A stretch of DNA of 36,614 nt from positions 1-36,614 of the forward strand of contig JAUYPV010000031.1 of assembly GCA_030697555.1 (NCBI GenBank), in the 5' to 3' direction. The position numbers were made by a program, and so were the translations under genes. The notes beneath the pieces are model-generated. The model saw nothing but the letters and a program-made list of their open reading frames with translations, ran no database searches and was not told the origin of the DNA. This document shows, piece after piece, positions 4,265 to 26,706 of the stretch. Each line of letters opens with the position of its first letter. The stretch's first letter is position 1. The DNA is from Hyphomonadaceae bacterium. Lineage in GTDB: Bacteria; Pseudomonadota; Alphaproteobacteria; Caulobacterales; Hyphomonadaceae.

Positions 4265-4840
4265 GTGAGCAGTGCTCCCTACAGATCCAACGCTGGCGCC
4301 GGCACGGCTGACCCGGGTGAAAGCCACGTCCGCTTGACACCGGGCGCCAGCATCGAAGCGCTCTATCGCGACTACTGGATGGAGCTTTGCCGCCAGCTGC
4401 GGCGCTCGTTCGGGTCTGGACCGCCGGAGCCGGAGGATGTCGTTCAGGCGGCGTTCGCGAGGCTGGCGGCGCTCGACGATCCAGGGCGGGTCCACAATCC
4501 CCGCGCCTTCCTGTTCGCGACCGCCCGCAACATCGTGCTCGATCACAAGCGCCGGCAGAGTCGCTACTTCGCCTACGCCCAGGATGTTCTCTCCACGCAT
4601 TCGACATTGAGTTTGGATGAATTGTCGCCCGAGCGCGTCTATCTCCACAAGGAGCGGTTCGACATCATCCGGCGCACGATCGAAAAACTGCCGGAGAAGC
4701 AGAGAGTCGTTTTGAACCTTCATAGAAATCAGGGATACACCTACCAGCAGATAGCGAATGAAACGGGTTGGTCTTATGGTGACGTCTATCGCCAGATGGA
4801 AGCTGCGTTGGCGACGCTGTCAGACGCTCTGAAACGCTGA
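4265..4840 (+). CDS. ECF sigma factor, FecI-like
   Basis: This 191-residue protein is a group IV (extracytoplasmic function) RNA polymerase sigma factor. Region 2 is visible around ALYRDYWMELCRQLRR through PEDVVQAAFARLAAL and the RAFLFATARNIVLDHKRR motif. Region 4, the -35-binding helix-turn-helix, is EKLPEKQRVVLNLHRNQGYTYQ and on to the end. I chose the GTG at 4265 because AAGG lies eight bases upstream and everything before it lacks sigma-factor similarity; the open frame itself extends back to 4097. The gene is followed 18 bases later by a FecR anti-sigma gene and then by an STN-containing TonB receptor, the classical FecI-FecR-FecA arrangement of cell-surface signalling. It probably activates the downstream receptor operon when the receptor is occupied. 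The start codon is the main uncertainty. Confidence 0.9.
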   Translation: MSSAPYRSNAGAGTADPGESHVRLTPGASIEALYRDYWMELCRQLRRSFGSGPPEPEDVVQAAFARLAALDDPGRVHNPRAFLFATARNIVLDHKRRQSRYFAYAQDVLSTHSTLSLDELSPERVYLHKERFDIIRRTIEKLPEKQRVVLNLHRNQGYTYQQIANETGWSYGDVYRQMEAALATLSDALKR

Positions 4841-4858
4841 AGGGTTTGGAAATCCGTC

Positions 4859-5890
4859 ATGCGCGAAGCGGAGCGGCGCCAGAGTATTGAACAGGCGGCC
4901 CGTAGATGGGTCGTGTATCTTCATTCGGGCGACATCGATCCGCAGGTTCGAAGGACGTTCGAGGCCTGGCTGATTGCCGATCCCGCCCATGCGCGCGCCT
5001 ATCGCGATCACGAGCAGCTGATGGGGGATCTCAGTCTCATCGATGTGCGGTCCGACAGGACGGTGGGCCAGCCCGCGAATGACACCGGCGCGCCCGCCTC
5101 TTCGAGCCGCACTCCTTCCTTGTGGAGACAGGCGGCGCCGATCGCTGCGGCGCTGGTCTTCGGGATTGTCTGCCTCGCGGCGCTTGGCGTCTGGCGGCCA
5201 TTCGGCGAAGGCGCATCCCTGCCCGCAGTCGAGACGCAGATCGCCGAGATCCGGACCGTCACTTTGCCGGACGGAAGTAGCGTAACCCTCGGAGCGCGTT
5301 CGAAAATTCAGACACGCTTCACGGACGGGATAAGGCTTGTGACACTGTCGGAGGGCGAAGCCTTTTTCGATGTCACGCCCGACCCGTCCCGGCCTTTTTA
5401 TGTCGACGCCGGTGACCGCCTGATCCGCGTCGTCGGCACCCGCTTCGACGTCCGGCGCGGAGACCAGAAGATCAAGATCTCTGTCGTCGAAGGCGTGGTC
5501 GAGGTCATGCGAGCCGACAACCCGGTAGTCGCCGAGACGACGCACTCCGCGCTTGCGAAAGAAGTGCTTCGCGCAGGCGATCAGGTCGTCACCTCGATCG
5601 GCGCCGACGATGTGCGCTGGTCTGCGGTCGAGCCGGAAAAGGCCGCATCCTGGCGGCGTGGATGGCTGACCTACGAGAATGCAAGCCTGTCCGAGATCGT
5701 CGCCGACGCAAACCGGTACAATCTCCGGCAGATAGAACTTGAGTCCGACGAGCTGAAGAACATCCGCATCACCGCTGCGTTCGGCACGGACCAGATCGAG
5801 CAGTTTGTCGCGGGGCTGGAAGCCAGCCAGCCGATATCGGCGGACAAATCCAACCCCGACCACATTGTATTGCGCGCCCGCGACCCGTGA
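4859..5890 (+). CDS. FecR-family anti-sigma factor
   Basis: This 343-residue protein is a FecR-type inner-membrane sigma regulator. The N-terminal cytoplasmic part (about residues 1-60) matches the DUF4880-like domain, with RRWVVYLHSGDIDPQVRRTF and the ADPAHARAY motif typical of these proteins. A single transmembrane helix lies near residues 93-115 (IAAALVFGIVCLAALGVW). The periplasmic FecR domain follows, with the hallmark VTLPDGSSVTLGARSKI, LSEGEAFFDV and VVGTRFDVR stretches. The C-terminal part (TYENASLSEIVADANRYN) matches the DUF4974-like domain that contacts receptor STN domains. It sits directly after the sigma factor, so the two are co-transcribed. By family knowledge it holds the sigma factor inactive, or acts as its co-activator, until the receptor signals. 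Confidence 0.92.
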   Translation: MREAERRQSIEQAARRWVVYLHSGDIDPQVRRTFEAWLIADPAHARAYRDHEQLMGDLSLIDVRSDRTVGQPANDTGAPASSSRTPSLWRQAAPIAAALVFGIVCLAALGVWRPFGEGASLPAVETQIAEIRTVTLPDGSSVTLGARSKIQTRFTDGIRLVTLSEGEAFFDVTPDPSRPFYVDAGDRLIRVVGTRFDVRRGDQKIKISVVEGVVEVMRADNPVVAETTHSALAKEVLRAGDQVVTSIGADDVRWSAVEPEKAASWRRGWLTYENASLSEIVADANRYNLRQIELESDELKNIRITAAFGTDQIEQFVAGLEASQPISADKSNPDHIVLRARDP

Positions 5891-5910
5891 TCCGCCGGCG
5901 CGCAGCGTTT

Positions 5911-5918
5911 GGAACTTT
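5911..5918 (+). promoter_or_regulatory. Possible ECF-type -35 element for the receptor operon
   Basis: GGAACTTT lies in the 135-base gap between the FecR gene and the receptor start. It matches the GGAAC core common to many ECF sigma -35 elements, and it is where a sigma-dependent promoter for the receptor would be expected. A further GGAA occurs at 5921. I could not identify a convincing -10, so this is a weak call. Confidence 0.3.
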
Positions 5919-6025
5919 GGGGAATTTGGAAAGAACCAAAAAATCTTGGACGATTTCGAGTCACCCGTCGTCTTCATCCCGAGAGCGCCCGATCTCCCGA
6001 GGCGCCGCAACGTGGGGACGACCTG

Positions 6026-8875
6026 ATGCATAGCGCGGCTAGAACGATATCGAAGGCACGTTGGGCCCGAGCGGTCTCATTGACCGCTCTCTGTCTTGGC
6101 GCCCTGCCCGCCTTCGCCCAGGAAAAACCACCGGAGAGCTTCCGCATCGACGCCCAGCCGCTGCAGAAGGCGCTGGTGAAGTATTCGGAACAGTCCCGCA
6201 CCGTCATCGTGGCGCCGGCCGAACTTCTGGAAGGCAAGCGGTCTTCGGCGGTGGGAGGCGACCTGACCGCGAATGAAGCGCTGGCGACCCTTCTGAAAGG
6301 GACCGGGCTGGTTCCACAGCAGGACACAAGCGGCGCCCTGACGCTCAAACTGGCGACAACCGGTGCGGAGGCGCAAACAGACCCCGTCCCTTTTCTGATA
6401 GCCGCGACTGAAGCTCCGGATCAGGAGCCCCAGGCTGCGGCGGGGCCTACGGCCGACGGGAACGAGCGCGACATCGTGGTCGTCACCGGCACGCGCGGCA
6501 AACCGCGTTCCATAATCGACAGCCCGACGCCGATCGACGTGTTCTCGGCCGAAGAGATCAACCAGGGCAGCCCGACCGGCGTGTTCGAGTCACTGCGCTT
6601 CCTGGTGCCGTCCTTCAACCTGCCGACGCGCGCTGGCGGCGGCACGGCCACTATCATCGCGACGGGCGGCCTTCGCGGCCTGAACCCTGACCAGACGCTG
6701 GTTCTGGTGAACGGCAAGCGCCGCCACAAGACGGCGCTGATCAACTCCGTGTCGGCCCTCTACAACGGCGCGGCGGGCGTCGACCTCAACATGATTCCGT
6801 CGTCGGCGATCGCCCGGATCGAAGTGCTCCGCGATGGCGCCGCGGCGCAGTATGGTTCGGACGCCATCGCCGGGGTCATCAATATCATTCTCAAGGACAA
6901 CGCCAGCGGCGGCGACGCTTCGGTCAGCTACGGCCAGAATTTCGACCTTGGTGATGGGCAATACACGACGGCCTCCGTGAACCAGGGCGCCTCGCTCGGC
7001 GATGCCGGCTTCGCGAACCTGTCCTACAGCTTCATGGACCGCGACAGCTCCAACCGCGCTGTTCCCATAGCCAGCACGGTCAACCTGTTCCCACTGCTGC
7101 CGGGCGGGGTCCGCGATCCGCGCGAGGCGTCGATCGACCGCCTGGTCACCAAAAACTACGGCTCCATGCCGCAGGTCTCCCACACCTTCGGCGCCAACGT
7201 GGGCTACGAGATCAACGGCCTGGAACTCTACGGCTTTGCGACCTACGGCGCCCGCGAGTCGGTGCTCAACTGGTCCTACCGAGCGCCCAACAACATAGCG
7301 ACACTTCCGGAGGTCTATCCGTTCGGCTTCCGCCCCCGGCTGACCATTCTCGAGGACGACTACGAAGTTGCCGGCGGCGTACGCGGAGCTTTCGACGGCT
7401 GGGACTGGGACGTCTCCTCCAATTTCGGATCCGACATCACCGACTGGGAAAACACGAACGGTCTCAACCCCAGCCTTGGACCGGCAAGCCCCGTCTTTTT
7501 CGAAGTGGGGCGCCTGATCTCGTCGGAATGGGTGAACTCCATCGATATCACGAAACCCTTTGCATTGAATGGAGCCGGCGAACTGCAGGTCTCCTTCGGC
7601 GCCCAGCACCGTTGGGAGAACTACAAGGTCGAACAGGGCGACGACGCAAGCTGGGCCGCGGGCACATATCGCCGTCCCGCCGGACAGGTCGGCGCTGGCC
7701 AGCTCCAGGCGCCCGGCGCCCAGGCGACGCCGGGCTTCCGTCCCGACGATGTCGCCGATGCCGAGCGCGTGAACCTCAACACCTATGCGGAACTCGGCTG
7801 GACACCCAACGAGAAGGTCTATCTCGGCGGCGCCGTCCGTTACGAAGACTTCGATGACGCTGCAGGCGATACCGTGATCTACAAAGTCAACGGCCGCTAC
7901 GAATTGCTGGACTGGCTTGCCGCGCGCGCATCCTACAACACCGGCTTTCGCGCTCCGACCCTGGCCCAGCAGGCCTATTCCTCCACCACCAGCCAGTTCC
8001 GCGACCTCGACGGCGATGGCGTTGCCGAACTTGTCCTGCTCAAGAACCTGCCCGTGAACTCGCCGGCCGCGGTTGCGCTCGGCTCCACGCCGCTCGTGCC
8101 GGAAGAGTCGAAGAACATCAGCGTCGGCTTCACAGCTACGCCGTTCGACAACTTTACACTCACGATCGATGCCTACCAGATCGATGTCGATGACAGGATC
8201 GCCGTCACGTCCACCTTCTCGCCTCTGGATACCCGCGCCTCGGCCACGCCCGGCGTGACGGTCGGCCAGCAGATCCAGGCGATCCTCGTCGCCAATGGCC
8301 TAAGCCCGGAAGTCAGCGGCCAGTACTACACCAACGCCATCGACACGCAGACCAAGGGCGTCGACGTGGTGGCCACTTACCGCATCGACACCGACGCGTT
8401 CGGCGATTTCGACTTCAACGTTGGATACAACGTCAACGAGACGGAGATCACGGGCATCATCGACAACCCGCCCGAACTCGCAGCTCTTGGTCCCATCGTC
8501 ATTTTTGACCGCGGCAAGCAGGGTTCTATTTCAGATTCGATCCCCGACTCGAAGATCACGATCAGCACAGGCTGGAAATTCGGCGCCTTCTCGGCCGATC
8601 TGCGCGGTACGCGCTTCGGAACCTACACCTCGCGGAACGCCACCAACGCCGCCGCCGATTTTGACGTCGAAGCGGAATGGATCGCCGACCTCGAACTCAG
8701 CTACCGGCTCACGGACGCGTTCACGATCTACGCGGGCGCCAACAATATTTTCAACACCTATCCCGAACAGATCAACCCGCCGGGCGCGACCGACGGCTCG
8801 AACATGTACAACACGCTGGCGCCGTTCGGTTTCACGGGCGGCTCCTGGTATCTGCGGGGAACCTTCAAGTGGTAA
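6026..8875 (+). CDS. TonB-dependent receptor with STN signalling domain
   Basis: This 949-residue outer-membrane receptor imports a ligand using TonB energy. The ATG at 6026 gives a clear signal peptide (ending LPAFAQ); the frame is open upstream but has no leader there. Domains in order are: an STN domain (about 35-115, FRIDAQPLQKALVKYSEQS), a TonB box-like DIVVVTG at 149-155, the plug domain (SPTPIDVFSAEEI through IARIEVLRDGAAAQYGSDAIAGVINI), then a 22-strand-type beta-barrel. The chain ends in an aromatic residue (GTFKW), as required for BAM assembly. The STN domain ties it to the FecR and sigma genes upstream, so receptor occupancy should regulate the locus. The ligand is not deducible. 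The downstream acylase suggests an acylated organic compound rather than only a siderophore; that is inference. Confidence 0.93.
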   Translation: MHSAARTISKARWARAVSLTALCLGALPAFAQEKPPESFRIDAQPLQKALVKYSEQSRTVIVAPAELLEGKRSSAVGGDLTANEALATLLKGTGLVPQQDTSGALTLKLATTGAEAQTDPVPFLIAATEAPDQEPQAAAGPTADGNERDIVVVTGTRGKPRSIIDSPTPIDVFSAEEINQGSPTGVFESLRFLVPSFNLPTRAGGGTATIIATGGLRGLNPDQTLVLVNGKRRHKTALINSVSALYNGAAGVDLNMIPSSAIARIEVLRDGAAAQYGSDAIAGVINIILKDNASGGDASVSYGQNFDLGDGQYTTASVNQGASLGDAGFANLSYSFMDRDSSNRAVPIASTVNLFPLLPGGVRDPREASIDRLVTKNYGSMPQVSHTFGANVGYEINGLELYGFATYGARESVLNWSYRAPNNIATLPEVYPFGFRPRLTILEDDYEVAGGVRGAFDGWDWDVSSNFGSDITDWENTNGLNPSLGPASPVFFEVGRLISSEWVNSIDITKPFALNGAGELQVSFGAQHRWENYKVEQGDDASWAAGTYRRPAGQVGAGQLQAPGAQATPGFRPDDVADAERVNLNTYAELGWTPNEKVYLGGAVRYEDFDDAAGDTVIYKVNGRYELLDWLAARASYNTGFRAPTLAQQAYSSTTSQFRDLDGDGVAELVLLKNLPVNSPAAVALGSTPLVPEESKNISVGFTATPFDNFTLTIDAYQIDVDDRIAVTSTFSPLDTRASATPGVTVGQQIQAILVANGLSPEVSGQYYTNAIDTQTKGVDVVATYRIDTDAFGDFDFNVGYNVNETEITGIIDNPPELAALGPIVIFDRGKQGSISDSIPDSKITISTGWKFGAFSADLRGTRFGTYTSRNATNAAADFDVEAEWIADLELSYRLTDAFTIYAGANNIFNTYPEQINPPGATDGSNMYNTLAPFGFTGGSWYLRGTFKW

Positions 8876-8944
8876 CTATCGCGACCTGATACGTCTGCGG
8901 AGCGATCCGCGCCAAAAAAGCCGAAAGAACGAAGGGGTGGAAGC

Positions 8945-11104
8945 ATGATGAATACGAAACGCGGCTTCGCGACGCTGCTGGTCGCAGCTTTCGCCGGTCT
9001 GATCTCCTGCACCACTGCGCCAGCGACGGTGGTGCAGACGGCGCCGGCGAAAGACGAACTCCTTTGGGATACCTACGGGGTTCCGCACGTCTACGCGAAG
9101 ACCGAGGCTGGGACCTTCTATGGCTTCGGCTACGCACAGGCGCAGAGCCATGCCGACGAGATCCTCCGGCTCTATGGCGAATCCCGCGGCCTCGGCGCCG
9201 AGTATTGGGGCAAGGCCTACGAGGACACCTCGATCTGGCTCATCAAGAACGACGTCCCGGCGCGCTCGAAGGTCTGGTACGACGCGCAGGAACCCAAATT
9301 CAAGGCTGACCTCGATGCGTTCGCCAAGGGCATCAACGACTACGCAGCCGCCCATCCCGATGCGATCGGCGCCGACGTGAAAGTCGTGCTGCCCGTCAGC
9401 GGGCTTGACGTGGTGGCGCACGCCCACCGCTTGATGAACTTCGTCTACGTCGCTTCCCCCGGTCGCGGCGGCGAAGGCGATGCGTCCGACGAAGACTTGG
9501 CCCTCCAGGCGCAGCAGGACGTTTATGTCGGCGAGGACGGCTCCAACACCTGGGCGGTCGCCGGATCAAAAACCGCCAGCGGCGCCACCATGCTGCTGCA
9601 GAATCCTCATCTGTCGTGGAGCACAAACTATTTCACGTATTATGAGGCCCACCTCACCGGCCCTGACTTCGAGATCTACGGCGCCACGCAGATCGGACTG
9701 CCGATCATCCGTTTCGCCTTCAGTCAACAAATGGGCATTTCCAACACCGTCAACGGCATGGTCGGCGCAACCAGCTACAGGCTGACGCTGAGGGACGGCG
9801 GCTATGTCTTCGATGGCAAGGTCCTGCCCTTCCAGGTGCGCAACACCAGCTACAAGCTGCGCCAGCCGGACGGCTCGGTCGTCACCAAACCGCTGGAGAT
9901 CAAGTCGACTGTCCACGGCCCCGTCTTCGATCGTCCTGACGGGACAGTGACAGCCTTGCGTGTCGCCGGCCTCGACCGGCCCGGCATGCTGCACCAGTAT
10001 TTCGACATGGTGACCGCAGACAGCTATGCAGAGTTCACCGTGGCGATGAAACGGCTGCAGGTGCCGACCTTCAACATCAGCTACGCCGACCGCGACGGGC
10101 ATGTCGAGTACATCTTCAACGGCATCGCGCCCAAGCGAAAATCCGGCGACATCGCCTTCTGGCAGGGCCTCGTTCCGGGCGACACGTCTGACTATCTCTG
10201 GACCGAGGTACACGCCTACGAAGACCTGCCGCGCGTCACCGATCCTGCCGCGGGCTTCATCCAGAACACCAACGATCCGCCATGGTTTCCGAGCTGGCCG
10301 ACGCCGATCAAGGCCTCGGACTACCCGGCCTACATGGCCCCGCAGGGCCCGGAATCCATGCGCGCCCAGAATGCGCTCAAGATGATCGCCGAGAACGAGA
10401 AGATCACGTTCGAGAAATTCATCGAGCTGAAGCTGTCGATGCGCTCGCTGCTGGCCGACCGTGTTCTGCCGGACCTGATCGCTGCCGCGAAATCCGATCT
10501 CGATCCGGAGATGCAGGCGGCCGTCAAGCTGTTTTCCGAGTGGGATCACATCTACTCGCAGGAGACGCGCGCCGGCCTTCTGTTCGAGGAATGGGGCAAG
10601 CTGTTCGCCGGCCCCCGCTTTGTCGACGTGGCCAACTACGCGGCGCCGTTCTCGGGTGACAAAGCGACCTCGACGCCGTCCGGCATCAAGGATCCCGCCA
10701 CCGCCGTAGAGATGCTACGCAAGGCGATCGCGACGACGAAAACCAAGTACGGCGCGATCGACCGCGTGTTCGGCGAGGTCTCCCGGTTCAAGCTCGGCGA
10801 TGTCGATGTTCCCGGTGATGGCAATGTCGGCGGCCTCGGCCCATTCCGTGTCATCACCTGGGGGCCGCTGGATGCCGCCGGCAAACGCTACCCCCAGCAT
10901 GGTGAGACCTGGATGGGCATGATCGAGTTCTCGACGCCTGTGAAAGCTTACGGCCTCATGAGCTATGGCAACTCGCGCCAGAAAGGCACGCCGCACTACA
11001 GCGACCAGATCGAAATGCTCTCGAAGCATCAGTTCCGGGAACTGTGGCTGCAGCGCAGCCAGGTGGAGGCCCACACGGCTGAACGCGTCGATCTCAAGCC
11101 ATGA
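8945..11104 (+). CDS. Penicillin-acylase-family N-terminal-Ser amidohydrolase lipoprotein
   Basis: This 719-residue protein belongs to the penicillin G acylase / acyl-homoserine-lactone acylase / cephalosporin acylase family of Ntn hydrolases. The precursor is cut autocatalytically, and the new N-terminal serine of the beta subunit is the nucleophile. Here the cut is expected just before Ser200 in [11 protein letters not shown], followed by the characteristic [15 protein letters not shown] strand. The alpha part carries [12 protein letters not shown] and the [13 protein letters not shown] motif, and later beta-chain motifs include [23 protein letters not shown] and QNTNDPPW. The leader ends in LISC, so it is a likely lipoprotein. 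It lies 69 bases after the receptor and overlaps the next start by four bases. The acyl-amide substrate is unknown; quorum-signal or acyl-peptide cleavage are both possible. Confidence 0.9.
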
Positions 11105-12675
11105 CCCTCCTCGCGAAAGACATGTCCATGCGGGCTCTCCACGGACTCCTGCCAGCCGCGATCCCATTGATGCTGGCTGGGATGCTGGCTGGGATCCTGG
11201 CCGCCTGTGCGTCCGCGCCTGCCGCCGAGGAGGCGGTCGATCCCGCCGCCGCGACCGTCCCCGTGTTCACCTCGGTCCAGCCGGAGCTGTTCGGTGTCGT
11301 CGGCTCTCTCTCCAACGCGTGGGGGGATTTCGACAATGATGGCGACATCGACCTCGCTGTGTCGCTGAAAAGCGGCGAGGTCCGTCTTTATCGCAACACC
11401 GCCGGCGCCTTCGCCAGCGCCGGCAAGGAGATGGGCCTGCCGCAGTCCGGCCACGAGCTGCGTGGCCTTAGCTGGGGCGATTTCGACGGCGATGGCGATA
11501 TCGACCTGCTTGGCGGATCCACGTCGCCCGACAATCTGACCTACGTTTTCCGCAACGACGGCGGAAAGGCCTTCATCGATGTCGCTGCCGACATCGGATT
11601 GACCATACCCGGCCGCTCCGCCCGCCAGACCAACTGGATCGACTACGACAATGACGGCGACCTCGACCTCTATTCGGGCAACCGGATGGGCGGCAACAAG
11701 CTGTTCAACAACGCCGGCGGCAAGTTCACCGAGCTTCTCGGCAACGGCGGCCCGAGCGACACCCGTCCCACCGTCGGCGCCTGCTGGTTCGACATGGAGC
11801 GCGACGGCGACCTCGACCTCTTTCTCGCCAACCAGTCCGGAGCGACCGACGCCATGTGGCGAAACGACGGCGCGACCTTCGTCGATGTCGCCCCTGCCCT
11901 CGGCATGGATGCTCCCGGACGGACCAGGGAAGAAGGCGGCGTCGGCTGCGCCATCGGCGACTACGACAATGACGGCGACTTCGACGTCTTCGTTCCGTCC
12001 TATGGACACAACCTGCTCTACCGCAACGACGGCGGCGGCAAGTTCACGAGCGTCGGCAAGGAGCTTGGCGTCGGTGTTGAAAACCACGCGGTCGGCGCGG
12101 CCTGGGGCGACTATGACAATGACGGCGACCTCGATCTTTCCGTCATCGCCTACGAAGGTCCAAACAACGCCCAGACGCCGCTCAACAAGCTGTTCCGCAA
12201 TGACGGGGCGGCGGGTTTCGTGGACGTCCTCACCAAGGACAGCCTGATCAATGCCGGCGACCACGGCGTCGAATGGGTCGATTACGACATGGATGGCGGC
12301 CTCGACCTGGCGCTGACCGACGGCTACGGCCCGGATGGCGGGCATTTTGTCTTTCGCAACGACCTGCCGGAACCTGCACGCAAGCGTAGCCTTAGTGTAA
12401 TGGTTCTCGACTCGGCCGGGCATTTCACCCGCGCCGGCGCCGAAGTTCGCCTGCTGGACGCCTCCGGCAAGGTCATCGCCTCTCGCCAGGTCCTGACCGG
12501 CGGCGGCTACAACACGCAGAGCGCCATCCCCGTCTATTTCGGCCTCGCCAAGACATCGCCAGTGACGGTCGAAGTGACGTTCATGGGCCAGAGCGGTCCG
12601 AAGTCGCAGAGAACCGTTGGTGTCCGCCCAGCGAACTATGCGGGGAAAAGTCTGATTGTCCGGCAGGCTGATTGA
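11101..12675 (+). CDS. FG-GAP/VCBS propeller lipoprotein with ASPIC/UnbV domain
   Basis: This 524-residue protein belongs to the CRTAC1-like group, which has FG-GAP/VCBS repeats and a C-terminal ASPIC/UnbV domain. The leader ends in LAAC, so it is probably a surface or periplasmic lipoprotein. Seven copies of a [WI]xDxDxDGDxDL motif can be counted (for example [28 protein letters not shown] and [14 protein letters not shown]), which fits one seven-bladed, calcium-binding propeller. One copy is degenerate ([12 protein letters not shown]) and the last has GGLDL. The C-terminal segment [19 protein letters not shown] to VYFGLAK matches ASPIC/UnbV. The ATG at 11101 overlaps the acylase stop, so the two are translationally coupled; an ATG at 11122 is an alternative start. 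The role is unknown; binding of a ligand or of the acylase is inferred. Confidence 0.88.
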
Positions 12676-12679
12676 CGGA

Positions 12680-12724
12680 GCCGCCACCGGCGGCGAGGCG
12701 CCCTGGACGTCCGTCGCGACGGAC
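12680..12724. terminator. Bidirectional terminator candidate between convergent genes
   Basis: The 50-base gap between two convergent genes holds two hairpins. GCCGCC-ACC-GGCGGC is at 12680-12694, and a perfect 16-base palindrome, GTCCGTCGCGACGGAC, is at 12709-12724. Position and symmetry fit transcription termination from both sides. There is no T-run, so it may be Rho-assisted. Confidence 0.45.
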
Positions 12725-12725
12725 T

Positions 12726-14063
12726 TCAGCGCCTGCGGCGCAGCGGAAATGCGGGCGCCCTAGGCGCAGGGCCTGCGGGTTGCTGTGGAACGTAAGCCGG
12801 CTTGCGCAGGTCTTCCTTCCGGATGGCGCCGATGAAGAACAGGATCGCCGTGCCGGCCAGCTCCATCGCCAGATCGATCTCGGCGTTTGAACGAATGATC
12901 ACCATCAAGCCAAAAATAAGGAAGGCCGCGTTGGGCAGTGTCTGGTTCTTCATCCAGGTTCGGAATATGCTCCACAGCCCCCACGCCGCAATGAAGTACG
13001 TTGCGTAGAAGCCCGGATAGCCAAGCTGCACGCCGTTTTCGATGTAGGAGTTGTGGAAGCTGAACTTCACGAAGTTATCGTAGAAGAAAAATCTGGTGAT
13101 CTGGTTGGCGATACCGAGTTCAGGCCGCCAGAAGCCGCTTGCCCCAACGCCGGTGAACGGATGCTCGTTCATCACGCGATAGCCGATGTCCCAGATGAAC
13201 GTGCGGCCGGTAAGCGTCGAATCCTTGCCGAGCGCGTCGAGCGCCGCGCCGGCGGCGTCGATCTGGAAAAGGCCGAAGAGCAGAAGGCCCGCTATGATGC
13301 CCAGCAGCACGACCGACATTGCGATAAATGTCCGCATGTGAGGAATACGCGCCGCCGGCTGCCACAGGAAGGCGTGCCCGAGGAAGGCCATGGTCGCCCC
13401 GCCCATCAGCACCAGGGTGGTCGCCGACTTGGAGAGCAGGATCAGCATCACCGCCAGCGGGATGAACAAGAGCGTGCTCATCCGTAGCCAGAGGTTCTGC
13501 CCGCGGTCGAGCAGGATCGTGAAAGCGGTCGTGTAGAGAATGAACATGTGGACGGCGAGGTAGTTCTTCTGCACGAACACGCCGGTCCAGTTGCCGTCCG
13601 TGATGTTGGGACTAACCAGGCTCATAAGAGCGCCAACGGTTTCACCGAGGAAGTAGATCGCGATGATCTGACGAACGCTCAGGCGGCTCGCCGCATAGAC
13701 GGCGATGGCGCCGGTCAAGGCCATGAACACGCCCTTGCGGATCGCCTCGTTGGCCGACGGCGCCCAGATCGCCGAAATCACACACATGACCGGGATGATC
13801 AGGGTCGGCCAGCCGCGGAGAAAGGCAGGAAGGGTTTGACGAGCGAACAGCACGAGGCCGCAGCAAAAATAAGCGACGGCGAAGTAGCGCAGCGCAGCCA
13901 TGCCGCCGATGGGAATGGTCACCGACACAACGAAGATCAGCATGACGATGGGGTCTAGATAGGTCATGTAGCGCAGCAGCGAGCGCGGGTGTTCCGGGGT
14001 ATAGGCCGGGCCCGGGTTCATCGGCGCTGCACCGCCTGGCGCGCGTGTCGACATGGTGTTCAT
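12726..14063 (-). CDS. O-antigen ligase / Wzy-like polysaccharide membrane protein
   Basis: This 445-residue polytopic inner-membrane protein has roughly ten to eleven hydrophobic helices. It contains the Wzy_C / O-antigen ligase signature: a periplasmic loop with STLTGRTFIWDIGYRVMNEH followed by PFTGVGASGFW, and FHNSYIENGVQLGYPG. Such proteins polymerise polysaccharide repeats or transfer them to lipid or protein. The N-terminal 30 residues are polar and the C-terminus is a basic Arg/Pro tail, both cytoplasmic. The start at 14063 (MNTMSTRAPGG) has a second in-frame ATG nine bases later. It diverges from a UDP-xylose synthase gene, which suggests that both serve surface polysaccharide synthesis. 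Whether it is a polymerase or a ligase cannot be decided from the family alone. Confidence 0.8.
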   Translation of the reverse strand: MNTMSTRAPGGAAPMNPGPAYTPEHPRSLLRYMTYLDPIVMLIFVVSVTIPIGGMAALRYFAVAYFCCGLVLFARQTLPAFLRGWPTLIIPVMCVISAIWAPSANEAIRKGVFMALTGAIAVYAASRLSVRQIIAIYFLGETVGALMSLVSPNITDGNWTGVFVQKNYLAVHMFILYTTAFTILLDRGQNLWLRMSTLLFIPLAVMLILLSKSATTLVLMGGATMAFLGHAFLWQPAARIPHMRTFIAMSVVLLGIIAGLLLFGLFQIDAAGAALDALGKDSTLTGRTFIWDIGYRVMNEHPFTGVGASGFWRPELGIANQITRFFFYDNFVKFSFHNSYIENGVQLGYPGFYATYFIAAWGLWSIFRTWMKNQTLPNAAFLIFGLMVIIRSNAEIDLAMELAGTAILFFIGAIRKEDLRKPAYVPQQPAGPAPRAPAFPLRRRR

Positions 14064-14406
14064 TCAGGCGATCCCGCCTCCTGGCCCGTCATTGCCGTCG
14101 CGCGATCACGGACGGCAAACACGGGCTCTGGGGCAACTGCCAGCAATCTGCATACCAGAAGATGAACCGTTGAAAGGCTGAACGCCCACCAGGCGAGTCG
14201 GCGCGTTAACCACACCCATCGCGGCAAACTGCCGCCTATGGCCCAGAATGACATCCTGGCCGAACCGGCCCGAATCTCCCTCCTAGCCTTCCTTCCGGTT
14301 TTGACGCGCATTGCGGAACGCGCTTTAAGACCGCGAACGTGTTGGAATCGCAGATACGTCCCCTGCTGGAAGTCGCCCGCCCGATCTGGAATTTGAGAGA
14401 GGACTG
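14064..14406. other. Divergent intergenic region
   Basis: This 343-base region separates the divergent O-antigen-ligase-like and decarboxylase genes and should hold both promoters. The only good promoter-like match is for the + strand gene (see 14301-14329). No gene with recognisable content was seen. Confidence 0.5.
14301..14329 (+). promoter_or_regulatory. Sigma70-type promoter candidate for the UDP-xylose synthase gene
   Basis: TTGACG at 14301-14306 (five of six to consensus) is followed after 17 bases by TTTAAG at 14324-14329 (four of six). This would give a leader of about 70 bases, ending with a GAGAGAGGA ribosome site before the ATG at 14407. Confidence 0.4.
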
Positions 14407-15369
14407 ATGCCCAAGGCCAGCTCACTTCTGGAGGATCGCGCGCTGGTTTCGGGCGGCAGCGGTTTCCTCGGCTCGCACCTATGCGACCGGTTGATCGCGC
14501 GCGGACAGAACGTGCTCTGCGTCGACAACCTGTTCACCGGTCAGAAGCGCAATATCGAGCATCTGCTCGACCACAAGAAGTTCGAATTCCTGCGCCACGA
14601 CGTGACGTTCCCGCTGTTTGTCGAGGTGGACCAGATCTGGAACCTCGCCTGCCCGGCCAGCCCGATCCACTACCAGCACGACCCTGTGCAGACGACCAAG
14701 ACGTCCGTGCACGGCGCCATCAACATGCTCGGCCTCGCCAAGCGGCTGGAAGCCAAGATCCTGCAGGCGTCGACCTCGGAGGTGTATGGCGATCCGACCA
14801 TCCATCCGCAGACCGAAGACTACTGGGGCAACGTCAATCCGATCGGCCCGCGATCCTGCTACGACGAGGGCAAGCGCTGCGCCGAGACGCTGTTCTTCGA
14901 CTATCACCGCCAGCATCGGCTGCGGATCAAGGTGATGCGCATCTTCAACACTTATGGCCCCCGCATGCATCCGAACGACGGGCGCGTAGTTTCCAACTTC
15001 ATCGTCCAGGCGCTGAAGGGCGCCGACATCACGATCTACGGCGACGGCAAGCAGACGCGATCCTTCTGCTACGTCGACGACCTCATCGACGGGATGATCC
15101 GCCTGATGGATACAAGCGATGATGTCACTGGCCCCATCAACGTCGGCAACCCGCGCGAATTCACCATGATCCAGCTCGCCGAGACCGTGCTGAAGCTGAC
15201 CGGCTCGAAGTCGAAGCTTGTCCGCTTGCCGCTCCCCGATGACGATCCCAAGCAGCGCCAGCCCGACATCACGCGCGCGCGCAACACACTGCGCTGGGAG
15301 CCGAAAGTCGGGCTTGAGGACGGGCTGAAGGAAACCATCGCCTATTTCCGGACCATCCTGGCGACCTGA
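14407..15369 (+). CDS. UDP-glucuronate decarboxylase (UDP-xylose synthase)
   Basis: This 320-residue extended short-chain dehydrogenase very probably converts UDP-glucuronate to UDP-xylose with bound NAD+. The dinucleotide-binding motif GGSGFLG is at residues 16-22, and Asp40 (CVDNLFTG) is placed to bind the NAD ribose. UXS-type residues are clear: [17 protein letters not shown], the STSEVYGDP segment with Thr123 and Glu125, and the YDEGK catalytic motif with Tyr152 and Lys156. The substrate region [18 protein letters not shown] and the [13 protein letters not shown] motif also match UXS rather than a dehydratase or epimerase. Length is normal for bacterial UXS. It sits beside a polysaccharide polymerase/ligase, so the xylose is likely to enter an exopolysaccharide or O-chain. 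The next gene starts 13 bases downstream. Confidence 0.9.
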
Positions 15370-23516: not shown

Positions 23517-25772
23517 ATGCATCACCACTCAATGACGCATGACGGATCGCTGGTTTTCCTCTCCTTCATGGTCGCCTTGTTCGCGTCCTACACTGCGCTC
23601 GACATGGGCACGCGGTTGCGCAGGGCTGCCGGCAAGGCGCGCTTGTTCTGGCTCGGCGGCAGCGCCGTGGTTCTCGGCGGCGGCATCTGGTCGATGCACT
23701 TCGTCGCCATGCTGGCCTTCGACGGCGGCGTTCCGATCGGCTACAATTTCGGCCTCACCGCCCTGTCGCTGGTGATCGCCATCGCGATCGTGGCGGTCGG
23801 CTTCCATATCGTCACGCGCGCCAATCCTTCGATCGTGCGTCAGGTCGCGGCCGGCGCCATCGTCGGGTGCGGCGTCGCCGTGATGCACTATACCGGCATG
23901 GCCGCGCTCGTCCTCGACGGCGCGATCCATTACGATCCAATGCTGGTGGCTGCTTCGATCGTGGTCGCCATCGTCGCCGCCACTGCGGCGCTATGGCTCA
24001 CCTTGAACCTGACGAAGCTCTGGCAGCGCGTGGGCGCCGCCGCGGTCATGGCGGTTGCGGTCTGCGGCATGCACTACACCGCGATGCTGGCCACTTCCAT
24101 CGAGACCCTGCCCGGCGAGATGGCCGCCATCGATCCGCTTTCGCGCTTGATCCTGGCCGCGGCCGTGTCGGTCGGCGTGTTCCTGATCCTCTGTCTTGCG
24201 ATGGTCTGCGTCTTCGTCGACCGGCGCTTCGAACTCCTCGCCGATCGCGAGGCGGAAGGCCTGCGCGCCGCCAACAAGGCCCTCACCGACAGCCAGGGCG
24301 CGATCCGCAACCTCCTGGACAATGCCGATCAGGGGTTCCTCACCATCTCGTCCGATCTGTCGGTGGGCGATCAATCCAGCGCCGCCTGCGAGGCGATCCT
24401 GGGCGAAGCTCCCGCAGGCAAGTCGATCATCGCCCTGCTCTGCCGCAATACGCCGCACGACACGGCCTCGGCGATGCAAGCCACGCTGGAAAGCGTATTC
24501 CGCGACTCCGACGACTTCGCCCGCGAACTCAAGCTCGAACTGCTGCCGACGGAATTCGGCCTCGATGGGAAATCCATCAAGGCCGGTTACAAATTCCTCG
24601 CCGACAGCGGGCGGGTGATGCTCATCCTCACCGACGTCACGCAGACACGGCAACTCGCCGAAGCGGTCGAGCGCGAGGGCAAGCGCCTGGCAATGACGGT
24701 GCTGGCGTTCACCGAGGGCGAGGCTTTCGCCGCCCTGGTCAACGACTACCAGAAATTCCTCGGCGCCGAACTCTCGCCGCTGATCCAGCGCATCGAGATC
24801 CCGGCCGCCGCCGGCGAGCTGCGCCGCCACCTGCATACCTACAAAGGCCTGCTCGCCCAGTTCAGCTTCCACTGCAGCCCGCGCTGCCTGAATGACATCG
24901 AGACGGCGCTGGCCGCCCAACCTTCATGGACCGCCGAGGCCGCCCGCGAAGCGATCAAGCCGCAGCGGCTGACAGCCGAACTGGAACTCGACCTGGCCGG
25001 CGTCACCGACATACTGGGACCGGACTTCGCCACCTCCGGCCGCCGAATCGTCCTGTCGCAACGTCAGTTGCAAGCGATGGAGAAGGTCGCCCGGGCGATG
25101 CTGGCCAGCGAGGAAGGACGCGCCGTATCGCCTCCCCTGCGCCTTCTTCTGCAAACCATCGCCGGCCTCGGCATGCTCGACGTCAAGGCGGCGCTCGCGC
25201 TGCACAGCCGCGGCGCGCCGGCGCTGGCGGACCGGCTCGAGAAGCAGCTGGCCCCGATCAGAGTCAAAGGCGCCGATGTCGGCTTGCCTCCGGAACGCTT
25301 TGGCGAATTTTTCCGCTCGCTGGTCCATGTCTTCCGCAACGCGATCGATCACGGCATCGAAAGACCGGAGCAAAGGCTGCTGGCCGGCAAGTCGCCCGAC
25401 GGGTTGATCCAATGCGATGTACGCGAAGAAAATGGCTGGGTCGAAGTCCTGATCAAGGACGATGGAGCAGGCGTTGATCGCTCCGTGCTGGAGGCCAAGC
25501 TCATCGCCGCCGGCGAGGAGAAATCCAAGGTTGGAAACCTCCCGCTCGTGGATCTTGTGTTCCGAGAAGGACTGTCGTCGCGAGATACGGCCAGCGACAT
25601 CTCGGGGCGCGGCGTCGGGCTTTCCGCAGTGAAAGCCGAGCTGGACCGCGTGGATGGCTCGGTCGAGGTCGAAACCGAACAGGGCGCCGGAACCCTCTTC
25701 CGTTTCCGCCTGCCCGTAGCAGGAACAAGCTCCACCGCTTCCAACGTCTTCGTCACGGGAGTCGCCATATGA
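23517..25772 (+). CDS. MHYT-domain membrane kinase with HPt and CheA-like ATPase
   Basis: This 751-residue membrane signalling protein starts at the ATG at 23517, supported by an AGAGG ribosome site and the immediate start of the MHYT domain; the frame is open back to 23193. The first ~240 residues hold about seven helices with the MHYT-type motifs WSMHFVAML, VMHYTGMAAL and GMHYTAML, thought to bind copper and sense small diatomic molecules. A short coiled coil and PAS-like segment follow (LLDNADQGFLTISSD). An HPt domain carries His440 in RRHLHTYKG. The C-terminal ATPase is CheA-like, with N box HVFRNAIDHGIE, DDGAGVD and SGRGVGLSAVKAEL. No HisKA dimerisation domain is seen, so the HPt His is the likely phosphorylation site. 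It overlaps the next gene by four bases. Confidence 0.88.
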   Translation: MHHHSMTHDGSLVFLSFMVALFASYTALDMGTRLRRAAGKARLFWLGGSAVVLGGGIWSMHFVAMLAFDGGVPIGYNFGLTALSLVIAIAIVAVGFHIVTRANPSIVRQVAAGAIVGCGVAVMHYTGMAALVLDGAIHYDPMLVAASIVVAIVAATAALWLTLNLTKLWQRVGAAAVMAVAVCGMHYTAMLATSIETLPGEMAAIDPLSRLILAAAVSVGVFLILCLAMVCVFVDRRFELLADREAEGLRAANKALTDSQGAIRNLLDNADQGFLTISSDLSVGDQSSAACEAILGEAPAGKSIIALLCRNTPHDTASAMQATLESVFRDSDDFARELKLELLPTEFGLDGKSIKAGYKFLADSGRVMLILTDVTQTRQLAEAVEREGKRLAMTVLAFTEGEAFAALVNDYQKFLGAELSPLIQRIEIPAAAGELRRHLHTYKGLLAQFSFHCSPRCLNDIETALAAQPSWTAEAAREAIKPQRLTAELELDLAGVTDILGPDFATSGRRIVLSQRQLQAMEKVARAMLASEEGRAVSPPLRLLLQTIAGLGMLDVKAALALHSRGAPALADRLEKQLAPIRVKGADVGLPPERFGEFFRSLVHVFRNAIDHGIERPEQRLLAGKSPDGLIQCDVREENGWVEVLIKDDGAGVDRSVLEAKLIAAGEEKSKVGNLPLVDLVFREGLSSRDTASDISGRGVGLSAVKAELDRVDGSVEVETEQGAGTLFRFRLPVAGTSSTASNVFVTGVAI

Positions 25773-26323
25773 AGCCCGACCTGAAGCCCGACCTCAGCCC
25801 GCTGGATCACGAGATCACCGCGGTGCTCCAGGTGGTCGAGCAGCGCACCATTTCGTTTTTCCGGGACGAGCTTGGCCTTGTGTCGAACGGGATCGACCGC
25901 CGCCTGCTTCACGAGGAACGCGTCGTGCTGCGCGCAATGACCGCGATCGTCGCGGTAGGCTCGCGCGCCGGCCTCTATATCGCCTACAGCTACGACGAGT
26001 CGCTCATCCGAGCGATGGCCAGGCGATACACGGAAGGGCTTTCAATCTCTCCCGATGAAGAAGAGCTCTACGTCCGGGAGACCGCTTCGGATGTCGTCAA
26101 CGTCATTGTCGGCAACTGCACGGCCGATCTTGCGCGTCGCGGCGAGACGGTGACCCTGTCGCCGCCGGTGCTGATGGTCGGCGCCCGTACGATCCAGGGC
26201 CGCACCGAGACCACCATTGCGGCGCTCACCCTGCGCTTCCCGGAAGGAGCGCTCGATGTGGCGTTCGTCGGGCCCAGGCTCCTGTTCGACGAGCAGCTGA
26301 ACTACAAGGGAGGACATTCCTGA
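25769..26323 (+). CDS. CheX/CheC-like chemotaxis-type protein
   Basis: This 184-residue cytoplasmic protein resembles CheX, which dephosphorylates CheY-P. The signature helix reads ETASDVVNVIVGNCTADL: Asn111 and the following GN fit the family, but the acid three residues before Asn is Asp108 instead of the usual Glu. A Glu104 sits one turn earlier. The remaining alternating strands (AIVAVGSRAGLYIAYS, SPPVLMVGARTI) match the CheX fold. Both ends overlap neighbouring genes: four bases with the kinase and one base with the receiver (TGATG). It therefore belongs to a strict three-gene operon, in which it would set the lifetime of the receiver's phosphate. No flagellar or MCP genes are nearby, so the link to motility is open. 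Confidence 0.8.
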   Translation: MKPDLKPDLSPLDHEITAVLQVVEQRTISFFRDELGLVSNGIDRRLLHEERVVLRAMTAIVAVGSRAGLYIAYSYDESLIRAMARRYTEGLSISPDEEELYVRETASDVVNVIVGNCTADLARRGETVTLSPPVLMVGARTIQGRTETTIAALTLRFPEGALDVAFVGPRLLFDEQLNYKGGHS

Positions 26324-26706
26324 TGGCGCTCAACATAATGGTCGTGGACGATTCCCTGATCATGGCTCAGAAGCTGAAAGCCATGCTGGGCGAGCTTGGC
26401 CATACGGTCGTGCGCACCTGCAAGGATGGGGCGGAGGCGGTGCGGGACTATCCGCTGGTCAAGCCGGACCTGGTGACGATGGATATCACCATGCCCGGCA
26501 TGGACGGCATCGACACCCTGAAGGCGATCAAGGGCATGGATCCCTTCGCGCGCATCATCATGGTGACATCGCACGGCCAGGAAGCGATGGTGCTGCGCGC
26601 GGTTGAGGCCGGGGCCCTCGGCTACGTGCTGAAGCCGGTCGCCAAGGACCGACTGGCGGCCATGGCTGACCGGGCGATGGTTCGCGCCCAAAAGAGATCA
26701 GCCTGA
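26323..26706 (+). CDS. Single-domain CheY-like response regulator
   Basis: This 127-residue stand-alone receiver domain has all the key residues: acidic pair Asp9/Asp10 (MVVDDS), phospho-acceptor Asp54 (VTMDITMPGMDG), switch Thr82 (IIMVTSHGQ) and Lys104 (GYVLKPV), with Tyr101 at the aromatic switch position. There is no output domain, so it acts by protein-protein contact or as a phosphate shuttle. Its start overlaps the CheX-like stop. Phosphotransfer from His440 of the MHYT kinase and hydrolysis by the CheX-like protein are the expected reactions. The target could be a flagellar switch, a diguanylate enzyme or an anti-sigma system; nothing in the window decides this. Confidence 0.92.
   Translation: MALNIMVVDDSLIMAQKLKAMLGELGHTVVRTCKDGAEAVRDYPLVKPDLVTMDITMPGMDGIDTLKAIKGMDPFARIIMVTSHGQEAMVLRAVEAGALGYVLKPVAKDRLAAMADRAMVRAQKRSA

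Follow-up and report, generated by a model that had tools for sequence, protein, structure and literature searches.

A three-gene signalling system in the genome of a Hyphomonadaceae bacterium (GenBank assembly GCA_030697555.1) is probably a self-contained phosphorelay of CheA descent, in which the kinase's own sensor replaces chemoreceptors and CheW. The genes lie on contig JAUYPV010000031.1, whose 36,614 nucleotides were analysed as a whole (the window), and encode a sensor kinase, a CheX-like protein and a single-domain receiver (Table 1). Sequence comparisons support the assignment of the kinase as a CheA-type core that has its own membrane sensor and an internal HPt domain, and that lacks both a HisKA domain and the P5 domain. 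The preliminary description had placed the three genes at 23517-26706 and described them as locked together by overlapping start and stop codons. We confirmed these coordinates, as well as the overlaps, which are 4 bases between the kinase and CheX genes and 1 base between the CheX and receiver genes.

Table 1. Features of the three-gene system, with positions numbered along the window
Feature	Position	Strand	Basis or remark
MHYT-PAS-HPt-P3/P4 sensor kinase, 751 aa	23517..25772	+	
MHYT sensor, residues about 10-234	23544..24218	+	Pfam, 3 stretches; M-H-F/Y motifs; model
PAS-fold segment, residues 264-379	24306..24653	+	
HPt four-helix domain, residues about 401-500	24717..25016	+	Profile matches and model helices
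His440 codon, predicted phosphorylation site	24834..24836	+	Invariant in 10/10 aligned kinases
CheA-type P3-like/P4 core, residues 512-737, without P5 after it	25050..25727	+	
ATGA, kinase stop/CheX start overlap	25769..25772	+	Same in L108 and L003
CheX-fold protein, 184 aa	25769..26323	+	Pfam; fold match to CheX structures
D108-x-x-N111, counterpart of the CheX E-x-x-N motif	26090..26101	+	
Single-domain receiver, 127 aa; D9, D10, D54, T82 and K104 present	26323..26706	+	Pfam and residue check
Asp54 codon, predicted phosphorylation site	26482..26484	+	

Domain anatomy of the kinase

The domain order proposed earlier for the kinase (MHYT, PAS-like segment, HPt and CheA-like ATPase) is supported by Pfam, profile and fold matches. 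The Pfam scan recovered MHYT, in three stretches, and HATPase_c. The M-H-F/Y motifs of the MHYT part, at residues 60, 123 and 185, correspond to membrane-helix repeats, and the predicted structure, which is of low confidence, has seven helices in this part. In NCBIfam, the MHYT part was best matched by a T2SS_HK model and the C-terminus by CheA models, with every match far below its curated cut-off.

The internal HPt domain with His440, another element of the preliminary description, agrees with several profile comparisons and with the invariance of this residue in the aligned kinases. PF01627 (HPt) matches 10 of 10 kinase homologues, the match of the window kinase itself being below the Pfam cut-off, and a profile of the domain matches six P1-type HPt segments with a probability of 96.2. 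CheA P1 structures were among the best matches in a profile search of the PDB (2ld6, 1e-6; 1tqg, 1.9e-6), in which a designed protein ranked first. The model has helices at residues 401-424, 429-448, 453-466 and 482-500, and the H-T-x-K-G/A motif is present. Fold comparison of the whole kinase returned hardly any HPt rows, and absence there is uninformative.

These helices could alternatively be the dimerisation domain of an orthodox sensor kinase whose HisKA went undetected, an arrangement for which helical segments of suitable length exist in the model (residues 375-399 and 515-549) and with which some of the Foldseek matches, being HisKA kinases, would be consistent. We rejected this explanation because the Pfam profile search found no HisKA in the kinase up to an E value of 0.1, in agreement with the earlier claim. 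The HPt motif, the homologues that score above the HPt cut-off, and the core, for which CheA P3-P4 gave the best matches in both fold and sequence (the P3 part matching weakly), also argue against it and leave it next to no probability. We therefore retain the CheA-type assignment.

The window kinase stops where the CheW-binding P5 domain of CheA would start: only 11-14 residues follow P4, and the Pfam scan found no CheW domain in the protein. Among 65 P4 matches in the loci analysed, the tail after P4 is 1-37 aa in 14 (13 distinct kinases, L104 and L109 being one contig) and at least 137 aa in the other 51. Tail length, not domain detection, served as the criterion for absence of P5, because a single CheW query recognised the CheW domain in only 10 of the 51 long-tailed rows. 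In a tree of 36 rows, comprising all 13 short-tailed kinases and 23 long-tailed ones that we chose, ten short-tailed kinases, whose N-termini are MHYT, multi-PAS or short, are united in a supported clade (98/95) apart from the sampled CheAs. Within the same tree, the window kinase groups at 99/98 with the kinases of a second trio in the host genome (L003) and of a Caulobacteraceae MAG (L108). The kinases of L105-L107 are also short-tailed and fall elsewhere, so either P5 was lost or lacking at least twice in this phylogeny, or the branching in that part is imprecise. L105 encodes, at 4678-7209, a kinase of separate lineage with 4HB_MCP, HAMP, HPt and ATPase domains and without P5; near it, at 8520-9500, is a CheX-domain protein whose N-terminus by eye resembles a receiver.

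The CheX-like protein and the receiver

Pfam and fold matches both assign the second protein of the trio to the CheX fold and PF13690. An acidic residue and an Asn occur on one of its helices; compared with the E-x-x-N motif of CheX, the Asn is kept and the Glu is replaced by Asp. All five members of the window's CheX subfamily have Asp at this acidic position, and all 19 other CheX sequences that were read have Glu. Such a conserved difference might mean that catalysis was removed or weakened, and that the protein is not a phosphatase of the phosphorylated receiver but its output or a partner that binds it, a role that would also suit a trio with no other output. We consider this unlikely, given that the position is still acidic, that the Asn is retained and that CheZ has Asp at the corresponding position, and we favour a phosphatase function. 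The receiver has a complete acidic pocket together with the Thr and Lys.

Genomic context in the host

Profile searches of the host genome, the assembly of which has a stated completeness of 99.45% and a stated contamination of 0.41%, returned no match for the CheW domain and none for the MCPsignal domain. The trio thus does not belong to a classical chemosensory array in this host, for which we also rejected membership in a chemotaxis cluster. The genome has 89 receiver-domain matches. The independence from chemotaxis genes that had been proposed for the trio therefore stands for the window and the host genome, but is qualified by one named MHYT relative, L108, in which the trio adjoins a single CheW gene. 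This gene is convergent with the trio, and the MAG holds four CheW domains, so a link to chemosensing may exist in that relative. The same two features would fit a trio that assists a conventional chemosensory pathway by supplying phosphate to its CheY or draining phosphate from it. However, the window's genome yielded neither CheW nor MCP domains, and the other neighbours of the trio differ between the window and L108; we regard this role as very unlikely and prefer the self-contained phosphorelay.

By sequence, the CheX protein of the window occurs in its own genome only, both among 61 genomes (its own, 14 from its genus, another 22 from the family and 24 from the order) and among 385 genomes of the class. 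Plasmid-borne spread was rejected, as the protein had no match in the plasmid collection. Inclusion of the upstream MarR gene in the trio is unsupported, since L108 has no MarR gene at this place. The MarR gene and the trio may be co-transcribed, because no promoter-like site is listed between MarR and the kinase. The left part of the window (4859-15369) includes a FecR-like gene, a penicillin amidase, a Wzy_C ligase and a GDP-mannose/NAD epimerase gene. Elsewhere, the host genome encodes a second MHYT protein of 701 aa (L073, 5140-7245), which combines an MHYT part with a match to the receiver domain.

The second, diverged trio is on contig C172 of the same genome. This locus (L003; 6,559 bases) encodes the receiver, the CheX protein and the C-terminal 445 residues of the kinase, with the same two overlaps as in the window; the N-terminal sensor of the kinase lies beyond the contig end. 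Identity to the window trio is 83% for CheX and 70% for the kinase part. We rejected the idea that these are two strain copies of one trio, considering this divergence and the contamination given for the assembly. The second trio is followed in the same orientation (L003 2-4060, minus strand) by genes for a Wzy_C ligase, a glycosyltransferase 2 and an FkbM methyltransferase; these polysaccharide genes are the only hint, a weak one, at an output.

Recurrence of the module

The preliminary description had suggested a search for the same trio in other genomes. Besides the second copy in the host, the whole trio with MHYT, and with the same overlaps as in the window, was found in L108. MHYT is known in the kinases of the window and L108 only, that of the second trio being cut by the contig end. 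A scan of named genomes with two patterns gave three loci (L108, L109 and L110), and earlier N-terminal patterns gave none. The module is a rare variant of chemotaxis-type signalling, a rarity that partly rests on the limited patterns. It is in none of the open-licence PMC papers that were searched, among which we found no paper covering both MHYT and CheX, and it may be in print elsewhere.

Related gene groups have other sensors. At L109 (the same contig as L104, to judge from its length and identical proteins) and L110, the genes for CheX and the receiver are followed by a kinase with several PAS domains. PF13690 matches occur in 16 of the 385 class genomes, and we inspected stretches of all 15 besides the host's own (G296 by one of its two contigs). 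Five of the 15 (G276, G277, G440, G365 and G174) have the order receiver, CheX and kinase, with a short-tailed HPt kinase and, in G276, one extra reading frame within the group. CheX and receiver genes at L065, L067 and other loci are beside a hybrid kinase in which an H-box-like motif was recognised by eye. The order of the genes varies, and the company of CheX, receiver and kinase stays. Three class genomes carry a receiver-CheX-kinase trio (L060 4206-6995, L061 4892-7542 and L062 4527-7381) that, judging its neighbours by eye, seems to lie between secY/adk-like and ribosomal-protein-like genes.

Proposed mechanism

Anatomy, conserved catalytic and phosphorylation positions, gene coupling and recurrence are observed, as is the lack of CheW and MCP matches in the genome; for the trio we infer the signal, each of the enzymatic reactions and the output. 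The MHYT part would sense a membrane-level cue, which could be a diatomic gas and/or copper by analogy with CoxC, and the signal would pass through a helix and the PAS-fold segment. P4 would then phosphorylate His440 of the HPt domain with ATP, and the phosphoryl group would be transferred from His440 to Asp54 of the receiver. CheX could strip the phosphate from the receiver, which would let the receiver track the momentary state of the signal, and output might occur by protein contact with a partner encoded elsewhere.

A broader scenario, which we consider quite improbable, is that CheA-lineage kinases were repeatedly freed from receptor arrays by acquiring their own sensors (MHYT, PAS or 4HB-HAMP) while CheX and CheY were retained as a minimal core that resets quickly. 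Here, CheX with its changed catalytic acid would be a reader or gate of the phosphorylated receiver and not a plain phosphatase, in a gas-responsive switch of surface polysaccharide.

The trio family seems to reuse chemotaxis chemistry for a non-swimming purpose. A supported clade of kinases that keep the HPt and P3-P4 of CheA without P5, each having a sensor of its own and linked to CheX and a receiver, would show a chemosensory core turning into a free-standing relay. With its three proteins, the trio is also compact enough that MHYT sensing, phosphorylation of the HPt and resetting by CheX could be reconstituted, and the conserved Glu-to-Asp exchange is a natural experiment on the role of the acidic residue.

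Comparison with known systems

Beyond the preliminary description, the analysis added the second trio, the missing P5, the module's recurrence with different sensors, the Glu-to-Asp exchange in CheX and a genome free of CheW and MCP matches. CheA operates together with MCP arrays of the same cell and, to our knowledge, is held to sense only via dedicated chemoreceptors and CheW. The window kinase resembles CheA of E. coli and Thermotoga maritima (P1-P5) in its HPt, P3-like and P4 domains, with P4 about 30% identical, and in having a separate receiver partner. In contrast to CheA, it has its HPt inside the chain, behind MHYT and PAS; P2 was not seen and a P5/CheW domain is missing; it has its own membrane sensor, and MCP and CheW domains were not found in the host genome. 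A survey of CheA reports the P5 (CheW) domain in 100% of surveyed CheA (PMC10542144).

The CheX protein differs from the CheX phosphatases of T. maritima, Borrelia burgdorferi and Desulfovibrio in having Asp for Glu and in being coupled to a sensor kinase and not to chemotaxis genes, and it is 8-16% identical to the solved structures. As compared by description, the receiver is like the MrrA-type single-domain receiver hubs of Caulobacter, which are also without an output domain. The seven-helix MHYT sensor and its three Met-His motifs are shared with CoxC, the CO sensor of Afipia carboxidovorans, which instead carries a LytTR DNA-binding domain as its fusion partner and lacks a kinase. The MHYT of CoxC senses CO with copper (PMC11347149), and by analogy the MHYT of the window kinase may sense a gas or copper.
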